Shown one piece after another: positions 17,782 to 34,589 of a DNA stretch of 34,686 nt. Position numbers and translations under genes: made by a program. The notes below the pieces were generated by a model. The model was not told the origin of the DNA and ran no database searches. It was given only the letters and a program-made list of their open reading frames with translations. Position 1 is the first letter of the stretch. Each line of letters starts with the position of its first letter. Source of the stretch: Oceanobacillus caeni (GTDB lineage: Bacteria; Bacillota; Bacilli; Bacillales; Amphibacillaceae); contig NZ_JAHHXM010000033.1 in assembly GCF_019037185.1 (NCBI RefSeq), positions 1-34,686 of the forward strand. The letters are read 5' to 3'.

Positions 17782-17830
17782 ATGTACATTAAAGCATTTC
17801 ATTTTATCCTGCGTTGTGAAAAACATCACA
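17782..17830 (-). promoter_or_regulatory. FNR-type promoter of nar operon 1
   Basis: TGTGA-AAAACA-TCACA at 17815-17830 matches the CRP/FNR consensus perfectly in both half-sites. On the - strand a -10 hexamer TTTAAT (5/6) occupies 17788-17793. Its centre is 32 bp from the centre of the box, which places the box at -41.5 (class II activation). The transcript would begin near 17781, leaving a short leader before the narG1 ATG. Confidence 0.85.
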
Positions 17831-18253: not shown

Positions 18254-18296
18254 TGTGATGTTTTTCACTTAATAACAAAAAAGAAAGGATTAAACT
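18254..18296 (+). promoter_or_regulatory. FNR-type promoter of narK
   Basis: TGTGA-TGTTTT-TCACT at 18254-18269 is a one-mismatch FNR box. TAAACT at 18291-18296 is a -10 candidate (4/6), 32 bp from the box centre to centre, giving the -41.5 class II spacing. Expected transcript start is about 18303, 54 bp before the narK ATG. Confidence 0.8.
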
Positions 18297-18356
18297 GTAG
18301 TCATAAACAAACACTAGGGTTAAATGAATATTATTTATAAGAAGGAAGGATGTATT

Positions 18357-19883
18357 ATGAAAAAACCTGGATTGCAATTAACTTTGCAAACATCAAGCTT
18401 GTTTATAGGATTTATGGTATGGGTATTAATTTCATCACTTATGCCCTACATTACAGCGGATATTCCATTAACGTCCGGACAAGCGTCCATCGTAACGGCA
18501 ATACCTGTCATATTAGGATCATTCATGCGTATTCCAATTGGTTTTTATGCAGACCGATTTGGGGCTAGAATTATATTTTTAATCAGTTTTCTTATTTTAC
18601 TATTTCCTGTCTTCTATCTAAGTATTGCTAACTCTTTTTTAGACTTAGTAATTGGAGGACTCATACTTGGTATTGGTGGGGCCGTGTTTTCCATCGGGGT
18701 TACGTCGCTTCCTAAATATTACCCAAAAGAAAAACATGGATTTATCAATGGGGTTTATGGTATAGGTAACATTGGTACTGCGATTACTTCGTTTGGAGCC
18801 CCTATATTTGCTGAATCTATTGGCTGGCAAGGAACCATTCGTATATTCCTAATCATATTACTTTTATTTGCTGCTTTAGTTTTCATTTTTGGTGATAGAA
18901 AAGAAACCAAAGTGAAAAAATCAATGATGGAACAAATTAAAGGCGTATATAAAAATGCAACTTTATGGTTCTTAAGCTTATTCTATTTCATTACATTTGG
19001 GGCATTTGTTGCTTTTACAATGTTCCTCCCAAGCTTTTTAGTAGATAACTTTGGCTTAGATCCAGTTGATGCTGGGATTCGGACAGCAATCTTTATTATC
19101 ATTGCTACATTGTTAAGACCAATAGGAGGACTATTAGCTGATAAATTTAATGCTTTCATTATTCTAATGTTTGTTTTTATAGGTGTTGCTTTTTCCGGAA
19201 TTTTACTTTCTTTCTCTCCAGGAATTGCTTGGTACACTGTTGGAGCATTAGCTGTAGCTGTTACAGTAGGTTTAGGAAACGGTACGATTTTTAAATTAGT
19301 TCCTCTCTACTTTTCCGAACAAGCAGGTATCGTAAATGGTATCGTTTCTGCGATGGGTGGTATTGGAGGATTTTTCCCACCATTATTACTTACAGCAGTA
19401 AGTAATCTAACTGGCCATCATGCCATTGCTTTTATGTTAATGTCTGAATTTGCTCTAGTAAGTTTTGTGATTGTTATCTTTATGTTTTATCAAGATCGTG
19501 TAAATGTGGAAGGAAAAATTATTGAAGGCGTTGCTGAAGGTATGATGATCACAAATAAAAATAAAATCATTCAACATGTGAACCCTGCCTTCACTAGAAT
19601 TACGGGCTATAGTCAAGAAGAAGTAGCTGGAAATACTCCTAAAATTATTAGCTCTGGAAAACATGATAAAACTTTTTATCAAGAAATGTGGAAATCCATT
19701 CATGAGAAAGGTTTCTGGGAAGGAGAAATCTTTAATAAACGTAAAAATGGTGAAGTTTATAAAGAACTTTTATCCATTAGTCCTGTTAAAAATAATGTTG
19801 GTGATATTATCCATTATGTCGGAGTATTTAATGATATCTCCTCTCAGAAAACTGATGAAAATAACGATAAACAAAAATCCTGA
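18357..19883 (+). CDS. narK: nitrate/nitrite transporter NarK with C-terminal PAS domain
   Basis: Residues 1-380 are a 12-helix major facilitator of the NarK/NNP family, importing nitrate and exporting nitrite. Both nitrate signatures are present (about 104-146, GIGGAVFSIGVTSLPKYYP and following; about 305-345, GLGNGTIFKLVPLYF and GGIGGFFPP), as are the substrate arginines R58 (FMRIPIG) and R254 (LLRPIGG). About 388-495 is a cytoplasmic PAS fold (GVAEGMMITNKNKIIQHVNP, FTRITGYSQEEVAG, GFWEGEIFNKRKNGE, HYVGVFNDIS). A bacterial NarK normally ends near residue 400, so this is a fusion in one uninterrupted frame. The ATG at 18357 follows AAGGAAGGATG. The gene has its own FNR promoter and is divergent from narG1. 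Confidence 0.94.
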   Translation: MKKPGLQLTLQTSSLFIGFMVWVLISSLMPYITADIPLTSGQASIVTAIPVILGSFMRIPIGFYADRFGARIIFLISFLILLFPVFYLSIANSFLDLVIGGLILGIGGAVFSIGVTSLPKYYPKEKHGFINGVYGIGNIGTAITSFGAPIFAESIGWQGTIRIFLIILLLFAALVFIFGDRKETKVKKSMMEQIKGVYKNATLWFLSLFYFITFGAFVAFTMFLPSFLVDNFGLDPVDAGIRTAIFIIIATLLRPIGGLLADKFNAFIILMFVFIGVAFSGILLSFSPGIAWYTVGALAVAVTVGLGNGTIFKLVPLYFSEQAGIVNGIVSAMGGIGGFFPPLLLTAVSNLTGHHAIAFMLMSEFALVSFVIVIFMFYQDRVNVEGKIIEGVAEGMMITNKNKIIQHVNPAFTRITGYSQEEVAGNTPKIISSGKHDKTFYQEMWKSIHEKGFWEGEIFNKRKNGEVYKELLSISPVKNNVGDIIHYVGVFNDISSQKTDENNDKQKS

Positions 19884-27871: not shown

Positions 27872-28996
27872 TTACCTTTTGCCTTTTTTCCTCATTACTT
27901 TAGGTATATATACACAGTACGGTTCACTTTCCATATAATCTCCTGTTGCATTATATGCTCTAGATCTTGAACCACCGCAAACATGTCTAAATTCGCAAAC
28001 CCCACATTTCCCTTTATATTTGTCTGGATTTCGAAGATTTTTAAATACCTCGGATTCTCTATAAATTTCTTGTAGTGGGTTAACACGAACGTTTCCTGCC
28101 TTAATTGGCAATAATCCACTAGGGTATACATCGCCAATATGAGAAATGAATACAAATCCATTCCCATCATTTACTCCTTTAGGTGCACGACCTAATCCAT
28201 CAATCTGTCCGGTTTTTCCCTGATTTACAGCATCTTCATAAAAGATATGTTCCTTATCACTCATTCCCTTGTGTTCACGCATCTTTTGTTGGATCACTAC
28301 TCGTCTGTAATGTTGACCAGCGGTTGTTTTAATATCAAAAGGAACTCGCTTGGATAATTGATATAACCATCTAAACACTTTTTCATGTTCTGCAGGAGAA
28401 ATCATATCTGATTCTTTTCCTCTACCTGTCGGAACAAGGAAAAACACACTCCATAATACGCAGTTTAGGCTCTCGACCATTTCTGCCATTTCCTCTAAAT
28501 AATCAAGATTATATTTAGAAATAACCGTATTAATCTGTAAAGGCATCTTTAGTTCATGCAAATATTGAATTGCTCTCATTGTTAAATCAAATGATCCTTC
28601 AGTCCCACGAAAGTGATCATGGATTTCTTTACAGTGACCATCGATACTAAATGCCCATCTAGCAAGACCAATATCTTTTGCTTTTTTCATTGCTTCTTTG
28701 GTAACATTTGGTGTTGCGGAAGGCGTCATGGAAACACGTACACCTTTTTTAATGGCATGTTCTGCAATATCAAATACATCTGGCCGCTCCAGTGGATCGC
28801 CCCCTGTGAACACAAGCATGGGATTATCCATGTCATAAATATCATCAATTAATTTCTTTCCTTCTTCAAAAGTTAATTCGAGTGGATGTCTATGGTGTTG
28901 AGCTTCTGCACGACAATGCAAACAATGCAATGCGCATGCACGTGTTAATTCCCATATTACAATAAATGGATTTTGATTATAATCTCTATTAAACAT
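27872..28996 (-). CDS. radical SAM/SPASM protein, NirJ/AhbD-like
   Basis: This 374-aa protein has the radical SAM motif C21-X3-C25-X2-C28 (CALHCLHC) after NPFIVIWELTRA, then TGGDPLERPD and a SAM-binding core. The C-terminal SPASM region is CGVCEFRHVCGGSRSRAY followed by a distal Cys (EPYC), for auxiliary cluster binding. The N-terminal pattern places it near the heme-modifying NirJ/AhbC/AhbD group and related SPASM proteins of unknown substrate. No nirS or other heme d1 gene is in the window, so a d1 role is not supported. AAGGATGGG precedes the ATG. It is co-directional with, and 70 bp after, the DUF2249 gene. Confidence 0.85.
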   Translation of the reverse strand: MFNRDYNQNPFIVIWELTRACALHCLHCRAEAQHHRHPLELTFEEGKKLIDDIYDMDNPMLVFTGGDPLERPDVFDIAEHAIKKGVRVSMTPSATPNVTKEAMKKAKDIGLARWAFSIDGHCKEIHDHFRGTEGSFDLTMRAIQYLHELKMPLQINTVISKYNLDYLEEMAEMVESLNCVLWSVFFLVPTGRGKESDMISPAEHEKVFRWLYQLSKRVPFDIKTTAGQHYRRVVIQQKMREHKGMSDKEHIFYEDAVNQGKTGQIDGLGRAPKGVNDGNGFVFISHIGDVYPSGLLPIKAGNVRVNPLQEIYRESEVFKNLRNPDKYKGKCGVCEFRHVCGGSRSRAYNATGDYMESEPYCVYIPKVMRKKGKR

Positions 28997-29066: not shown

Positions 29067-29306
29067 TTATTTTTTCTTAATTTTCACTTGCCACAAGTCG
29101 GGGCCTTCTTCTAAATACTCCCAACTAAATTGATTTTTTCTTTCCATTAAAAATTGATAATATAATGGTTTCGGATTGTGGTCATTGGACAGATGCATTA
29201 TTTCACCAGATTTTAATTGGTCAAACGCTTCAAATATTTTGGGATGTCGAATTTTTGGTTCAATGTCTGGTGCATGAAGTTTAATGGTATAGTGTTTTTC
29301 GTTCAT
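29067..29306 (-). CDS. DUF2249 domain protein
   Basis: This is a 79-aa protein spanning one DUF2249 domain: KLHAPDIEPKIRHPKIFEAFDQL, then the conserved GEIMHLSNDHNPKPLYYQF segment (the N-D-H/R-x-P-x-P-L-Y pattern) and a C-terminal W-Q-V-K-I strand. DUF2249 domains are TusA/SirA-like in fold and often sit beside hemerythrin or NO-related proteins; the molecular role is not established. ATG 29306 follows GGAGGG at 6-base spacing. The FNR promoter at 29533-29598 drives it across a ~220-base leader that contains repeat copy C1 in antisense. Confidence 0.85.
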   Translation of the reverse strand: MNEKHYTIKLHAPDIEPKIRHPKIFEAFDQLKSGEIMHLSNDHNPKPLYYQFLMERKNQFSWEYLEEGPDLWQVKIKKK

Positions 29307-29384
29307 GTGAATCCCTCCGTTTCTTTTCATAATCATTTGCTATATTTTGGAGTAAACTAATTTTGGAATTTAGGTACTCCTCCT

Positions 29385-29788: not shown

Positions 29789-30481
29789 ATGTATCCTGAA
29801 TCGATAAAAAAATTACTACAGCGTTTCCCACTTTTTAAAAGTTTAGAGGATCACGAAATAAATCATGTAGTTGAATTAGCAAGAAATCGTAACTACCCAC
29901 ATGGAACACACATATTTATGCAGGGGGATCCATTAGAGAATGTTTATTTTATTCATCAAGGTAAGATTAAAATTTATCGAACAGACATCCATGGAAAAGA
30001 GCAAATTATTAATGTTTTAAGTGCTGGAGAAATGTTTCCTCACCAAGGATTCTTTAGAAATGATAATTACCCTGCACATGCGGAAGTAATGGAGGATGCT
30101 CATTTAATCTATATTCCCATTCATTTATTTGAAGATTTTCTTATTAATAACCCTGAGGTCAGTGTTAAAATCTTCCGAGTATTAGGTGATAAAATTGTAG
30201 ATTTACAAAATCGATTAGAAGATAAGATTCTTCGCAATACATATGAACAGATCATCCTATTATTAATTCGGTTAGGGAAAAAACACGGTAGAATGAATGG
30301 AAATGAAGAAATTACTCTGCTAACACAGTTTACCAATAAAGATCTTGCTAACATGATAGGCTCTAGTCGTGAAACGGTTAGTAGAACATTAACCCAATTA
30401 AAGAGGAAAAAGTTAGTTTTTACGGATACAAAAGGAAGAACCGTTCTTGATACAAAGAGATTAAAGGAAGAATTGTTTTAA
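29789..30481 (+). CDS. CRP/FNR-family regulator without cysteines
   Basis: This 230-aa protein has an N-terminal cyclic-nucleotide-binding-like domain (HIFMQGDPLENVYFIHQGKIKIYR, about 41-64), a dimerisation helix, and a C-terminal winged helix-turn-helix (TNKDLANMIGSSRETVSRTLTQL). The E-T-V-S-R recognition helix fits TGTGA half-sites. It has no cysteine at all, so it cannot hold an Fe-S cluster like Fnr. The N-terminal half is rich in His (H22, H26, H38, H41). Cys-free relatives such as DNR/NNR sense NO through heme; that is possible here but unproven. AAGGTGGAG precedes the ATG. It is divergent from the DUF2249 unit and convergent with the oxidoreductase cluster. Confidence 0.9.
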   Translation: MYPESIKKLLQRFPLFKSLEDHEINHVVELARNRNYPHGTHIFMQGDPLENVYFIHQGKIKIYRTDIHGKEQIINVLSAGEMFPHQGFFRNDNYPAHAEVMEDAHLIYIPIHLFEDFLINNPEVSVKIFRVLGDKIVDLQNRLEDKILRNTYEQIILLLIRLGKKHGRMNGNEEITLLTQFTNKDLANMIGSSRETVSRTLTQLKRKKLVFTDTKGRTVLDTKRLKEELF

Positions 30482-30482
30482 T

Positions 30483-30524
30483 AATAAAGGTATTCCAATC
30501 CAAAAGGAATGGTATACCTTTATT
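30483..30524. terminator. bidirectional terminator between the CRP/FNR gene and the CtaG-like gene
   Basis: AATAAAGGTA (30483-30492) pairs with TACCTTTATT (30515-30524); ATTCC/GGAAT extend the stem inside a small bulge. The hairpin abuts the CRP/FNR stop and overlaps the stop of the opposing gene. Confidence 0.7.
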
Positions 30525-31092
30525 CATTTTCACTTTCTTCTAGGCTATAATCTTTTATAAATAGAGATTGAACAAAATAAATGAAGAGACATAAACCTAT
30601 TAGTAAAAATGTCCAGCCAAGTGCTTTTTGTTCTACGATGAGGTAATTGTTACATATTTGTGTAGGAATAGCGATGTATAACCAAGCCATAGCACTTGAT
30701 ATTAAAATCAAACAAATAAAAATGATATTTTTTCCTAAAGTATTAAGATTACTCCAGCTATCCCGTAAAGGTATTCCTGCTAAAAATGGCAAGCTGATAA
30801 ATTTAAAAATCTCAATAGTTGATATCGCAAGTGCTTCATCCATCGCACGAGGAATCATCCAGTAGATTACGATAATCATAAATAGCATGATTCCTGGTAT
30901 TCCATTATAATTCCAGTTCTCAAAAACATTAGGAAATCTATCTTTTAAATACGGTGTAAATAGCATTCCAACTATTACGAGAAGCGGTATTTGCATATGC
31001 ATATGGACGACCATAATAGATTCAGATAATGTAATTACCGGTGGGAGCATAAGAAATAGATACAGTACTAAACCATATATAGCTTGCTTCAT
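30520..31092 (-). CDS. CtaG-like polytopic membrane protein
   Basis: This 190-aa protein has about six transmembrane helices. ESIMVVHMHMQIPLLVIVGML resembles the His/Met-rich helix of CtaG-type cytochrome oxidase copper-assembly factors. YWMIPRAMDEAL and FISLPFLAGIPLRDSW recall the second CtaG motif, but the usual histidines there are missing. The ATG overlaps the sco stop by one base (TAATG), so it is coupled to sco. A copper or heme assembly role for the adjacent oxidoreductase is inferred from this and from position. Confidence 0.65.
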   Translation of the reverse strand: MKQAIYGLVLYLFLMLPPVITLSESIMVVHMHMQIPLLVIVGMLFTPYLKDRFPNVFENWNYNGIPGIMLFMIIVIYWMIPRAMDEALAISTIEIFKFISLPFLAGIPLRDSWSNLNTLGKNIIFICLILISSAMAWLYIAIPTQICNNYLIVEQKALGWTFLLIGLCLFIYFVQSLFIKDYSLEESENE

Positions 31093-31724
31093 TACTTATC
31101 ACCTACCTCATTTTCAAGAATGCTCATTAGCTTGCTTGCTGCTTCATCCACCTTTTGGTAATCCATTACATCTACTAATTTCCCTTGTGGGTTGACAAGA
31201 TAAAAGGCAGAGTTGTGAGTAAAATTACCTTGATTATCGGGAATAACAATAACGCCAAATTCATCTAGTAAACTATGCAATTCTTCAGCATTTGGTACTC
31301 TTGCCATTCGCCATGTTTCCCCGTCACTTCCAAAAAGGCGACGATACTTTTCTAAGGTTTCAACATCATCACGCTCAGGATCAAAACTAATACTTAAGAA
31401 TACAATATCTTCCCCTATATATTTTTCTGGTACTTGATCATAGACATTAAATAGATTCATCTCTAATTCTGGACATACAGATGTACATGTTGTGTAAACA
31501 AATGTTATCATTACGTATTTCCCTTTGAATTCAGAAAAGGAGTATATATTTCCCTTACTATCCTCTAATGTTACATCTGGAAATACCGGTTGTTCCTCTA
31601 CCAATTTCATGGTTCTTGCCTATTCCGTAGTAAAAGCTTGAAATCCATCTGTTTCAATAAAAAACAGAACAACTCCAAATAAGACAACTACACATAAGGA
31701 TATTGTATTTTTATTTTTGATCAT
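31092..31724 (-). pseudogene. Sco-family copper chaperone, interrupted by an in-frame amber codon
   Basis: Sco proteins deliver copper to the CuA site and are membrane-anchored. The thioredoxin-like domain (31610 to 31092, 172 aa from an internal ATG) keeps the copper ligands C42-X3-C46 (TTCTSVCPE) and the distal His (GNFTHNSAF). Immediately upstream, in the same frame, ATG 31724 opens a 34-residue signal anchor (basic MIKNKNT, a hydrophobic helix, then ETDGFQAFTTE) with AGGGTG as ribosome site. TAG at 31622-31620 follows, then Ala-Arg-Thr and the internal Met. The join reads like one protein of about 210 aa with a single nonsense change. If the domain is made from the internal ATG, which has only a weak ribosome site, it would lack its anchor. 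Confidence 0.8.
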
Positions 31725-31966: not shown

Positions 31967-33646
31967 TTACCAAGTCCTAAATGGCGGGGATCCTGGTGGT
32001 GCATTAACGATAATATCCATTAATGGCACTACATATCCCATAGCTACAATTGCCAAAAACATAACAATCCATAACCCCCAGCGCTCTGTCCATTTTGGAG
32101 TCGGCATTACATTTTCTTCAGCTTCCGCAATCGGGAATTCAGTTTCTCCTTTTGGTGCAAAGAACATTAAGTGGATTGCGATATAAAACATGAGGATAAC
32201 TCCAATGATAAGTAGTGTTCCTCCAATAGCTAATAAGAACAAATACGGATCCCAACTTAAAGCAGTTGCTTGATCACCATAAGTAGAAAAAGAACTTCTT
32301 CTAGGCGCCCCTAATAATCCAACCCAATGCATAGAACCAGACATAAAGATCATACCAACTGTCCAAATAATGGTTTGATAAATACCTAATCGATTGATTC
32401 GCGGTGTTAATTCACGCTTGGAAAGATGTGGAATTAACCAATAGGCGATTCCAAAGAAGGTAAGAACTACTGTAACACCAACTGTTAAATGAAAGTGACC
32501 CGTTACCCATAACGTATTATGGACAACTTGATTTAACTGATTATTTGTTTGTGCAATTCCACCTGCACCACCAAATATAAATGCAACCATCGCAATAAAT
32601 GGTGCTAAGAAGCGGACATCACCCCAAGGTAATTTCTTGAACCAACCTAATAATCCTTTTGCTCCTTTTTTTCTTCCTGTCCGTTCAAATGCAGCAAACA
32701 TTGCAAAGGCCGTCATCAAGGATGGAAATGCAATTGATAGGCTCATAAATACATGAATAAATTTCCAAGTTTCTGTAATACCAGGATCAATAATTTGATG
32801 GTGAAACCCACCTGGGATATTTAATATAACTAACAAAATAACAACTAATCGAGTTAAGCCATCACTAAATAATTTACCGCCAATAACCTTTGGTACAACA
32901 ACATACCACGCTGAAATAGCAGTTAAATACCAAATATTAACTAATGTATGACCAAAGCTCCAAAACAGCGTACGGCTAAGCATAACATTGACGGTTTCCG
33001 TCCAACCGAAAGCCCATGGAATAAGCATGAACACTTCAACAGTTACTCCAATACTTCCGAAAAATAGTAGTACAAATACACCAGTTGCAAAAAATGCTAA
33101 TAATGGAGTATGTTTTCCACGATGATTTTTTCTCCAATTGGCGATATTTATAAACGCTCCAAATGCAGCAATCCAAATACCTAGAACAACAAAAACTAAA
33201 CCAATATAAAACCACGGGGAAGCTTGCATTGGTGGATAAAAGGTATATAAAACGGATGCATCCCCCATAACAATAGTTGTTGCAACAAAGGCAACCCCAA
33301 TCATCATCATTCCAAATGCAATCCAACCCATTTTCCGAACTTTAGGTAATAGGCCGCCTAACGTATGGGATAGAGCTGCATAAAAATAGCCGACTGTAAA
33401 TAATGTTGTAAAGACTAATAATAATAAAATGCCATGTGCTGTTAGCGTTTGATAGTAGTCAAACCAACTTGGTAACTCCAGCAATCCTGCTCGATTTAAT
33501 CCTTGAAATAAACCTAGAAAACCTCCAATTAATAATACGAGAAATGCTACTGCGAGATACGTTAAGCTGAGTCGAGCATCATCTTGATGAAATCCAGCAA
33601 CATAGTTTATTTTTTTTGAAAGATTACGTTTTTCCACTAATTCCAT
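31967..33646 (-). CDS. cbaA: B-family heme-copper oxidoreductase subunit I, predicted CuA-type nitric oxide reductase
   Basis: This 559-aa protein has about 12-13 helices. By sequence it would be named b(o/a)3 cytochrome c oxidase subunit I. All six metal-ligand histidines are present: H71 and H386 for the low-spin heme, H384 for the high-spin heme, and H233, H282, H283 for the second metal. Numbering coincides with T. thermophilus ba3 from 233 onward. The helix VI motif, however, is GHTLVNIW: residue 237, the His-cross-linked Tyr essential for O2 chemistry, is Asn. Y248, S309 and T312 of the ba3 K-path remain; 315 is Ala. Loss of the Tyr, together with nar genes and FNR boxes, fits the CuA NO reductase described from Bacillus azotoformans. 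ATG 33646 follows AAGGAGGGG. Confidence 0.85.
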   Translation of the reverse strand: MELVEKRNLSKKINYVAGFHQDDARLSLTYLAVAFLVLLIGGFLGLFQGLNRAGLLELPSWFDYYQTLTAHGILLLLVFTTLFTVGYFYAALSHTLGGLLPKVRKMGWIAFGMMMIGVAFVATTIVMGDASVLYTFYPPMQASPWFYIGLVFVVLGIWIAAFGAFINIANWRKNHRGKHTPLLAFFATGVFVLLFFGSIGVTVEVFMLIPWAFGWTETVNVMLSRTLFWSFGHTLVNIWYLTAISAWYVVVPKVIGGKLFSDGLTRLVVILLVILNIPGGFHHQIIDPGITETWKFIHVFMSLSIAFPSLMTAFAMFAAFERTGRKKGAKGLLGWFKKLPWGDVRFLAPFIAMVAFIFGGAGGIAQTNNQLNQVVHNTLWVTGHFHLTVGVTVVLTFFGIAYWLIPHLSKRELTPRINRLGIYQTIIWTVGMIFMSGSMHWVGLLGAPRRSSFSTYGDQATALSWDPYLFLLAIGGTLLIIGVILMFYIAIHLMFFAPKGETEFPIAEAEENVMPTPKWTERWGLWIVMFLAIVAMGYVVPLMDIIVNAPPGSPPFRTW

Positions 33647-33659
33647 CCCTTCCCCTCCT

Positions 33660-34127
33660 TTATTTAACGGTTATCGTCGTTGCCATCAACTGATGACCTG
33701 CTCCGCAATATTCATTACAAAGTACAAGGTATTCACCAGGTTCATCGAATTTTTGCGAGATTCGTTGAATATAACCTGGCGTTACCATTGCATTAATGTT
33801 CGTTCCAGCAACTTGAAAGCCATGAACGACATCTTTAGAAGTTAACGTAAAATGAACTTCAGAACCCGCCGATATTTCAATTTCATTTGGAGTAAAACTA
33901 AATGCTTGTAGTGTCATAACTACTTCATATTCATTTTCTCCTATTTCAAACACACCTGGATTATCAAATGGAGCATGTTCATCTACCTTTTGTGGATCTA
34001 ATGTTTCCGTATTACTTGGTGGTGCCATTCCTTGGGCAAACGCTTGGTATCCAGTAAACACCATGGAAAGCACAAGAATAGCTACACCAACAATTAACCA
34101 AATTTCTTCAGCACGATGCATTTTCAT
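33660..34127 (-). CDS. cbaB: heme-copper oxidoreductase subunit II with CuA site
   Basis: This is a 155-residue subunit: one N-terminal helix (about 9-30, WLIVGVAILVLSMVFTGY) anchors an external cupredoxin domain. The CuA ligands are H in VVHGFQV and the C-terminal LCNEYCGAGHQLM (C-X3-C with His and Met). It has no heme c motif. A Glu preceding the helix (AEEIW) aligns with Glu15(II), the K-path entry of ba3. I start at the ATG at 34127; AAGGAGG lies within the longer reading, eight bases upstream. It accepts electrons from a cytochrome c or quinol donor and passes them to subunit I, 13 bp downstream. Confidence 0.92.
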   Translation of the reverse strand: MKMHRAEEIWLIVGVAILVLSMVFTGYQAFAQGMAPPSNTETLDPQKVDEHAPFDNPGVFEIGENEYEVVMTLQAFSFTPNEIEISAGSEVHFTLTSKDVVHGFQVAGTNINAMVTPGYIQRISQKFDEPGEYLVLCNEYCGAGHQLMATTITVK

Positions 34128-34145
34128 CAGGTTAACCTCCTTCAT

Positions 34146-34298
34146 TTAGATTCGAATCATATAAAAAACGATGAGTAAGACGATAAAAGCTACAATCGTT
34201 CCACCAACAAATACAATAGAAGAAAATAATGCACCTTTTAATGAATTTTCATCTTTATAGAGATCATTTTTCGGAATAACACCTTTATTTCTTTCCAC
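34146..34298 (-). CDS. small single-helix subunit (ba3 subunit IIa-like)
   Basis: The GTG at 34298, seven bases after GGAGGG, gives a 50-aa protein. It has a polar N-terminus (ERNKGVIPKNDLYKDENS) followed by one transmembrane helix, with KGAL just before it. The size and KGAL-helix pattern match subunit IIa of ba3-type enzymes. A longer in-frame reading upstream runs into the promoter and is not used. It is the first gene of the operon, 19 bp before subunit II. Confidence 0.75.
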   Translation of the reverse strand: MERNKGVIPKNDLYKDENSLKGALFSSIVFVGGTIVAFIVLLIVFYMIRI

Positions 34299-34328: not shown

Positions 34329-34394
34329 ATTGTAGATTGAAATGATAGAGGGAAAAGTGAACCAAATCACAACTTTCATGTGATTTACCGCACA
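34329..34394 (-). promoter_or_regulatory. tandem FNR-type promoter of the heme-copper operon
   Basis: On the - strand, box A TGTGA-TTTGGT-TCACT (34371-34356) is centred 32 bp from a strong -10 hexamer TACAAT (34334-34329), giving -41.5. Box B TGTGC-GGTAAA-TCACA (34394-34379) is centred 23 bp further upstream at -64.5. Predicted start is near 34322, 24 bases before the first start codon. Two boxes in this arrangement imply strong anaerobic or NO-linked activation. Confidence 0.8.
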
Positions 34395-34442
34395 CTTGTG
34401 AAATTCATTCATTTTTTTGGTAATTTGAAACTTTATTCAGTA

Positions 34443-34589
34443 GGGGGGTTTGTGTGGGGGGGTGGGTACTTTGTCTGTTGGTTGGTACTATCACGGACAT
34501 TTCGAGGTATTTTGAATGCAACTTTGTTCGTGACAACCTCTCATGGACATTTCAGGCTATTTCGAATGCAGTTTTGTCCGTGATAGCTC
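34443..34589. repeat. G-rich tract and tandem 50-bp palindromic repeat
   Basis: Runs of six, seven and three G lie at 34443-34466 on the + strand. Next to them are two imperfect 50-bp units (34490-34539 and 34540-34589) sharing GGACATTTC, a GAATGCA core and TCCGTGA/TTCGTGA ends. The outer arms TATCACGGACA (34489-34499) and TGTCCGTGATA (34575-34585) are perfect 11-bp inverted repeats. There is no gene here; it looks like an intergenic palindromic repeat. Confidence 0.65.

Follow-up and report, generated by a model that had tools for sequence, protein, structure and literature searches.

A probable CuA-containing nitric oxide reductase of the B family of heme-copper enzymes in Oceanobacillus caeni

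The locus described here raises the question of whether a heme-copper enzyme that resembles the b(o/a)3-type oxidases, and in which an asparagine stands where these oxidases carry the cross-linked active-site tyrosine, reduces O2 or nitric oxide (NO). It lies in a stretch of 34,686 nucleotides from Oceanobacillus caeni (contig NZ_JAHHXM010000033.1), which was analysed as a whole and is hereafter called the window, in a neighbourhood that comprises two nar operons and a regulator of the Crp/Fnr family. An initial annotation, made from the letters of the window, had read the enzyme as a probable CuA NO reductase, with the enzyme known from Bacillus azotoformans as its precedent.

This precedent was confirmed, both for the asparagine and for the gene cluster. 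According to Heylen and Keltjens (2012, PMC3475470), the genes of the B. azotoformans CuA NO reductase (CuANOR) were identified via the sequenced N-terminus of its subunit II, the cross-linked Tyr is replaced by Asn, which was read, as here, as the mark of an NO reductase, and the cluster cbaC1-cbaB1-cbaA1-senC1-cbaD1 is common to other Gram-positives. Since the Tyr-to-Asn change, its reading and the five-gene cluster are all described there, the novelty of the present locus is low: the window enzyme is a further member of a described and catalogued enzyme type (bNOR, also type I qCuANOR), for which the same inference was published in 2012. In a 2024 survey, bNOR is reported from 123 of the 433 genomes of Bacillota phyla with NOR or Nos (PMC11388526).

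Gene cluster, metal sites and the interrupted SCO gene

Five genes on the minus strand follow one another in the order cbaC-cbaB-cbaA-SCO-cbaD. The open reading frames (ORFs) are where the initial annotation had put them, and its span 31967-34298 takes in three of the five: cbaC (34146..34298), which starts with GTG behind GGGAGGG and encodes a 50-residue, single-helix peptide, the third small subunit; cbaB (33660..34145), which encodes subunit II, with one N-terminal helix (read from the sequence) and a CuA cupredoxin domain; and cbaA (31967..33646), an intact ORF of 559 residues for a B-family heme-copper subunit I. They are followed by a gene for a copper chaperone of the SCO1/SenC type (31092..31724), whose reading frame is interrupted, and by cbaD (30520..31092), encoding a 190-residue membrane protein with no Pfam match; by the description in PMC3475470, cbaC and cbaD are the counterparts of cbaC1 and cbaD1. 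The gene of the Crp/Fnr-family regulator (29789..30481, plus strand) is convergent with the cluster. Near the contig end, at 34440-34580, a G-rich run and repeated GGACATTTC stretches were noticed by eye.

The closest solved structures to subunit I are those of the ba3 oxidase of Thermus thermophilus (best E 6e-101), and over the active site its numbering coincides, in the alignment, with that of 1EHK. An AlphaFold model built from 16 sequences (mean pLDDT 80.2, with only 63 over residues 221-230 and 55 over residues 281-290) has 13 long helices, counted by hand, and Foldseek aligned it to ba3 structures with a TM-score of 0.82-0.84. The initial annotation had claimed all six metal-binding histidines and listed five of them; the alignment with Thermus ba3 upholds the number, the one omitted being H71 (Thermus H72) beside H233, H282, H283, H384 and H386. 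Asn237 does occupy the place of the Thermus cross-linked Y237. In subunit II, E13 aligns with Thermus E15, so that the glutamate had been correctly reported as retained, and a CuA motif (C143-N-E-Y-C147-G-A-G-H151-Q-L-M154, plus H108, residues which we take to be the CuA ligands) is present without any heme c motif, also as first noted. The top NCBIfam match of subunit I is CtaD_CoxA, with 79 bits against a cut-off of 671, and under standard annotation a probable NO reductase would wrongly be called a cytochrome oxidase.

The SCO frame encodes a membrane anchor from the ATG at 31724 and then meets an in-frame TAG (31620-31622) before the thioredoxin-like domain; at the same place the frame is open in all four Oceanobacillus relatives read (L036-L039). 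Since the linked SCO gene carries this stop, CuA loading could be impaired, and the complex might be inactive in this strain, with CuA unloaded and assembly poor. We consider this very improbable: the genes for the structural subunits are unbroken, contig 17 of the same genome has another gene of the SCO family (101 bits, above cut-off), four of the 33 Asn-type loci described below have no SCO match within the stretch covered, and in a draft genome such a stop may stem from faulty sequencing or assembly.

The Asn clade and its probable link to the purified enzyme

Subunit I sequences were collected, among the matches listed, from the own genome, from a search of relatives (58 genomes) and from a search of the class (299 genomes). 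From 114 loci, part of which are not cbaA, 85 distinct rows were aligned together with Thermus, after nine duplicates had been dropped and two partial matches set aside. At position 237, among the matches listed, 47 rows carry Asn and 39 carry Tyr (38 from Bacillota, plus Thermus), with no other letter. Identity to the window subunit I is 54-100% for the Asn rows and 52-56% for the 38 Bacillota Tyr rows, which are b(o/a)3-type oxidases with a CuA subunit II and include the contig 33 paralogue of the own genome. Named strains of Oceanobacillus, Virgibacillus, Ornithinibacillus, Neobacillus, Sporosarcina, Jeotgalicoccus and Salinicoccus are among the Asn rows.

Trees were made without columns 233-244. 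In a quick tree with Thermus, the 47 Asn rows all fall on one side of a single branch (SH-aLRT 99), and a more careful tree without Thermus (LG+G4, a simpler model) recovers the same Asn/Tyr split, with bootstrap 100 and SH-aLRT 99; in 100% of 200 bootstrap trees without Thermus, a single Tyr/Asn change is required. Independent losses of the Tyr are thus unsupported (the long branches being those of L099 and Thermus), and an N237 arising by chance or from an annotation error is ruled out, given that every one of the 47 clade rows among the matches listed carries Asn. The deepest-branching Asn enzyme, L099/L120 (G287:C1), is 54% identical to the window protein and carries Met240, Phe203 and T302; no SCO or cbaD match was found within the 13 kb read around it, and it is possibly an early bNOR lineage.

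The published 20-residue peptide from the N-terminus of the B. azotoformans subunit II connects this clade with the purified enzyme. Aligned with the subunit II proteins of the rows with a readable cbaB (three, L016, L103 and L105, were without one), it scores above 59 (60-93) in 16 of 46 Asn rows, ten of them reaching 85-93, and in none of 36 Tyr rows, where the range is 42-59. Because scores above the Tyr range occur in Asn rows only, the enzyme that was purified probably falls in the Asn clade. The window subunit II itself scores 44, a value that none of 500 shuffles equalled; as Tyr enzymes score 42-59, this number is silent on NO reductase versus oxidase, and we do not read the window N-terminus as matching that of the purified protein. 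The link of the window to that enzyme would instead run through subunit I and the cluster, with the subunit II peptide on the B. azotoformans side.

The cluster itself recurs. Among the matches listed, all 33 Asn loci that have longer flanks show cbaB linked to cbaA, SCO and cbaD accompany it in 29 of the 33 (missing in L050, L055, L056 and L060), and a small ORF with an ATG start precedes cbaB in 28. Of the two Tyr loci with longer flanks, neither L069, which has cbaB only, nor the paralogue of the own genome (L121) has an SCO or cbaD match beside it. The B. azotoformans enzyme (BAZO_06394-06409) is described as having the same Asn for Tyr, the same one-helix CuA subunit II, a small cbaC peptide, the same gene order and a linked SCO gene and membrane protein; the window enzyme differs from it in organism and sequence, with a subunit II N-terminus that is not close, and in the stop of its SCO gene (PMC3475470).

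Taken with the six histidines, the Asn and the one-helix CuA subunit II without heme c, the Asn clade, the peptide and the published type I cluster order argue for the assignment first proposed: judged from its sequence, the cluster very probably encodes a bNOR, that is, a CuA-containing NO reductase (type I qCuANOR) reducing NO to N2O.

Helix VI and the presumed proton path

Subunit I shares with the Thermus ba3 oxidase (1EHK) the B-family fold, the six metal-binding histidines, the CuA subunit II and part of the K path, and differs from it by Y237 to N237, Y244 to I244, L240 to Y240, V279 to G279 and T302 to S302. The K path of ba3 presumably comprises Y248, S309 and T312 together with Y244. 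The initial annotation had suggested that a K-type path is retained, naming Y248, S309, T312 and the subunit II Glu. These residues are retained in the window, and Y248, S309 and T312 in 47 of 47 Asn rows among the matches listed; its account omitted that Y244, in our reading also a K-path residue, is lost along with Y237. Among the matches listed, every one of the 39 Tyr rows has Y244; the 47 Asn rows have instead V (30), I (15, as in the window), L (1) or A (1), and all 38 Bacillota b(o/a)3 rows keep Y237, P234, L240 and Y244.

One turn below N237, a tyrosine appears at position 240 in 46 of 47 Asn rows and in 0 of 39 Tyr rows, which carry L240, again among the matches listed; the exception is L099, the deepest Asn row, with Met. 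On an ideal helix, measured from H233, residue 240 lies at -20 degrees, residue 237 at +40 and residue 244 at +20, from which Y240 would face the active site and the path, the argument being one of ideal helix geometry. In open-literature searches we found no mention of Y240, and publication of the Tyr swap elsewhere is possible.

The substitution belongs to a wider set. Requiring one letter in at least 90% of the Asn rows, another in at least 80% of the Tyr rows and at most 5% crossing, 12 of 559 columns are clade-specific (from the Tyr to the Asn clade: F87Y, M186F, P234T, Y237N, L240Y, S276N, V279G, L285I, L301M, T302S, V305I and T409S), and nine of the 12 lie within residues 221-326, in helices VI-VIII (binomial p 4e-5). 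When columns conserved in both clades are taken without a crossing limit, 11 of 50 inside this stretch differ, against 7 of 110 outside it (Fisher p 0.005); both p values are optimistic, since the stretch was picked after the list had been seen and related rows are not independent.

A tyrosine so placed bears directly on the question of substrate. Against its own reading, the initial annotation would have counted a tree that puts the protein firmly among the O2-reducing ba3 enzymes, together with another Tyr within reach of the active site; the tree sets the protein apart from the Tyr enzymes, and Y240 may be such a Tyr. The enzyme could then be a true O2 reductase without the cross-link, in which another Tyr, such as Y240, serves as radical and proton donor: the residue is confined to the Asn rows and lies on the face of 237 and 244, and a relocated Tyr is known from C-family oxidases, where the cross-linked residue is supplied by a different helix (PMC8780969). 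We nevertheless judge this very improbable, and slightly more so than an inactive complex, as the enzyme purified from B. azotoformans, which probably falls in the Asn clade, reduces NO (PMC3475470, PMC5826923), the deepest Asn row has Met240, and the genome holds three other COX1-family genes, all oxidase-like. These are a Tyr-bearing paralogue, a gene passing QoxB and one passing CtaD, so O2 respiration need not rely on the window enzyme, which lacks a cross-linkable Tyr at 237 and stands outside the Tyr enzymes in the tree. A type II qCuANOR, which is also a B-family enzyme with Asn and CuA, is a negligible prospect, because that type is described (PMC3475470) with a 12-helix subunit I and a two-helix subunit II, compared here by description only, and the window enzyme has 13 helices in subunit I (in the model), one in subunit II (from the sequence) and the type I gene order.

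For the preferred bNOR, the hint of electrogenic turnover in the initial annotation agrees with what is published for the B. azotoformans CuANOR, with a respiratory control ratio of 2.4 (2015 work, as told in PMC5826923), and by analogy would extend to the window enzyme. A fuller scenario, which we offer tentatively and regard as rather doubtful, is that bNORs rebuilt a K-type path by giving up the tyrosines at 237 and 244 and placing between them Y240, which would pass protons from the cytoplasm to NO at the binuclear centre in an electrogenic reaction, with Met240 of L099 representing the stage before.

Control, host and proposed turnover of the enzyme

Upstream of cbaC, the reported tandem FNR-like boxes are present, each one mismatch from TGTGA-N6-TCACA: the first (34356..34371) is centred about 65 bases before the cbaC start, and the second (34379..34394) lies 23 bases further upstream. 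The whole window has five such sites against 1.21 expected, a number reached in 2 of 100 shuffles. Among the matches listed, at least one box with at most one mismatch precedes the cluster in 25 of 33 Asn loci, where about 0.02 per locus would be expected from 50 simulated sequences each, and a second set of loci gave a box for 18 of the 20 with Asn and for 11 of the 37 with Tyr; the two sets share some Asn genomes, and the Tyr locus L103 had too short a flank and a misplaced scan. As Tyr loci carry boxes too, such a site, though frequent ahead of the NOR cluster, does not separate NO reductase from oxidase, and its use as proof of NO reductase function was ruled out.

Further FNR-like boxes occur at 17815-17830 (no mismatch), near the first narG start, inside the listed narG ORF and ahead of the start of the profile match (residue 99), and at 18254-18269 (one mismatch), preceding a single ORF (18324-19883, plus strand) for a NarK-like MFS transporter with a C-terminal PAS domain, which lies between the two nar operons. 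Both operons, as first reported, are real, with narG, narH and narI of each above the NCBIfam cut-offs. On the minus strand, a radical SAM/SPASM protein (27872-28996; TIGR04053, above cut-off, the next models being the heme b synthase AhbD and NirJ types) adjoins a DUF2249 protein (29067-29336).

The draft genome (3.57 Mb in 87 contigs, 99.86% complete) has no qNOR or cNOR among its four COX1-family genes; these two reductases catalyse the same reaction as bNOR, are without CuA and are related to C-family enzymes (PMC11388526). In profile searches of this genome, NirS gave no match; three weak matches to NirK were rejected as multicopper oxidases; the three NosZ matches were below cut-off, two of them being the CuA subunits of the window cluster and of the paralogue; and none of 12 NirB matches passed the cut-off (the best is a CoA-disulfide-reductase-like protein), which is a strict one, as only 2 of 14 control genomes pass it. 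Globin domains occur in two ORFs, 417 and 425 residues long, which are plausibly flavohemoglobins, and four cytochrome c domains exceed the Pfam cut-off, one in an ORF beside CtaD. By the NOR, NirK, NirS, NirB and NosZ profiles tried, the host looks like a nitrate respirer and not a full denitrifier, unlike B. azotoformans, which denitrifies fully and has four NO reductases (PMC3475470). With NirK and NirS not found by profile, the supply of NO is uncertain. N2O is described from B. licheniformis without either of these, and CuANor is said to be the source of N2O in B. vireti, which ammonifies nitrate, so that there is precedent for a CuANOR outside classical denitrification (PMC4719734).

In the turnover we propose, electrons donated by a membrane cytochrome c, by menaquinol or by both (cytochrome c551 and menaquinol being the donors that characterise the bNOR class) would enter at CuA of subunit II and pass by way of the low-spin heme (H71, H386) to the binuclear centre, formed by a high-spin heme on H384 and a metal, Cu or Fe, on H233, H282 and H283. 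There, two NO would be joined to give N2O and water, while the site, with Asn237 in the place of a Tyr cross-linked to H233, would lack the electron and proton donor for splitting O2. Protons from the cytoplasm would probably arrive along the rebuilt K-type path, through the subunit II Glu, S309, T312, Y248 and then Y240, and, since they would come from that side, turnover would probably be electrogenic. Control of the FNR type would switch the cluster on at falling O2, during nitrate respiration, and the enzyme would remove NO that escapes from the metabolism of nitrate and nitrite.

For the family, the swap of Y240 for Y244 offers a testable site for energy conservation by a B-family NO reductase. 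For the organism, this probable bNOR is the sole heme-copper NO reductase found, beside two nitrate reductases, and the profiles gave no NirK, NirS or NosZ, so that strains of this kind may emit N2O.
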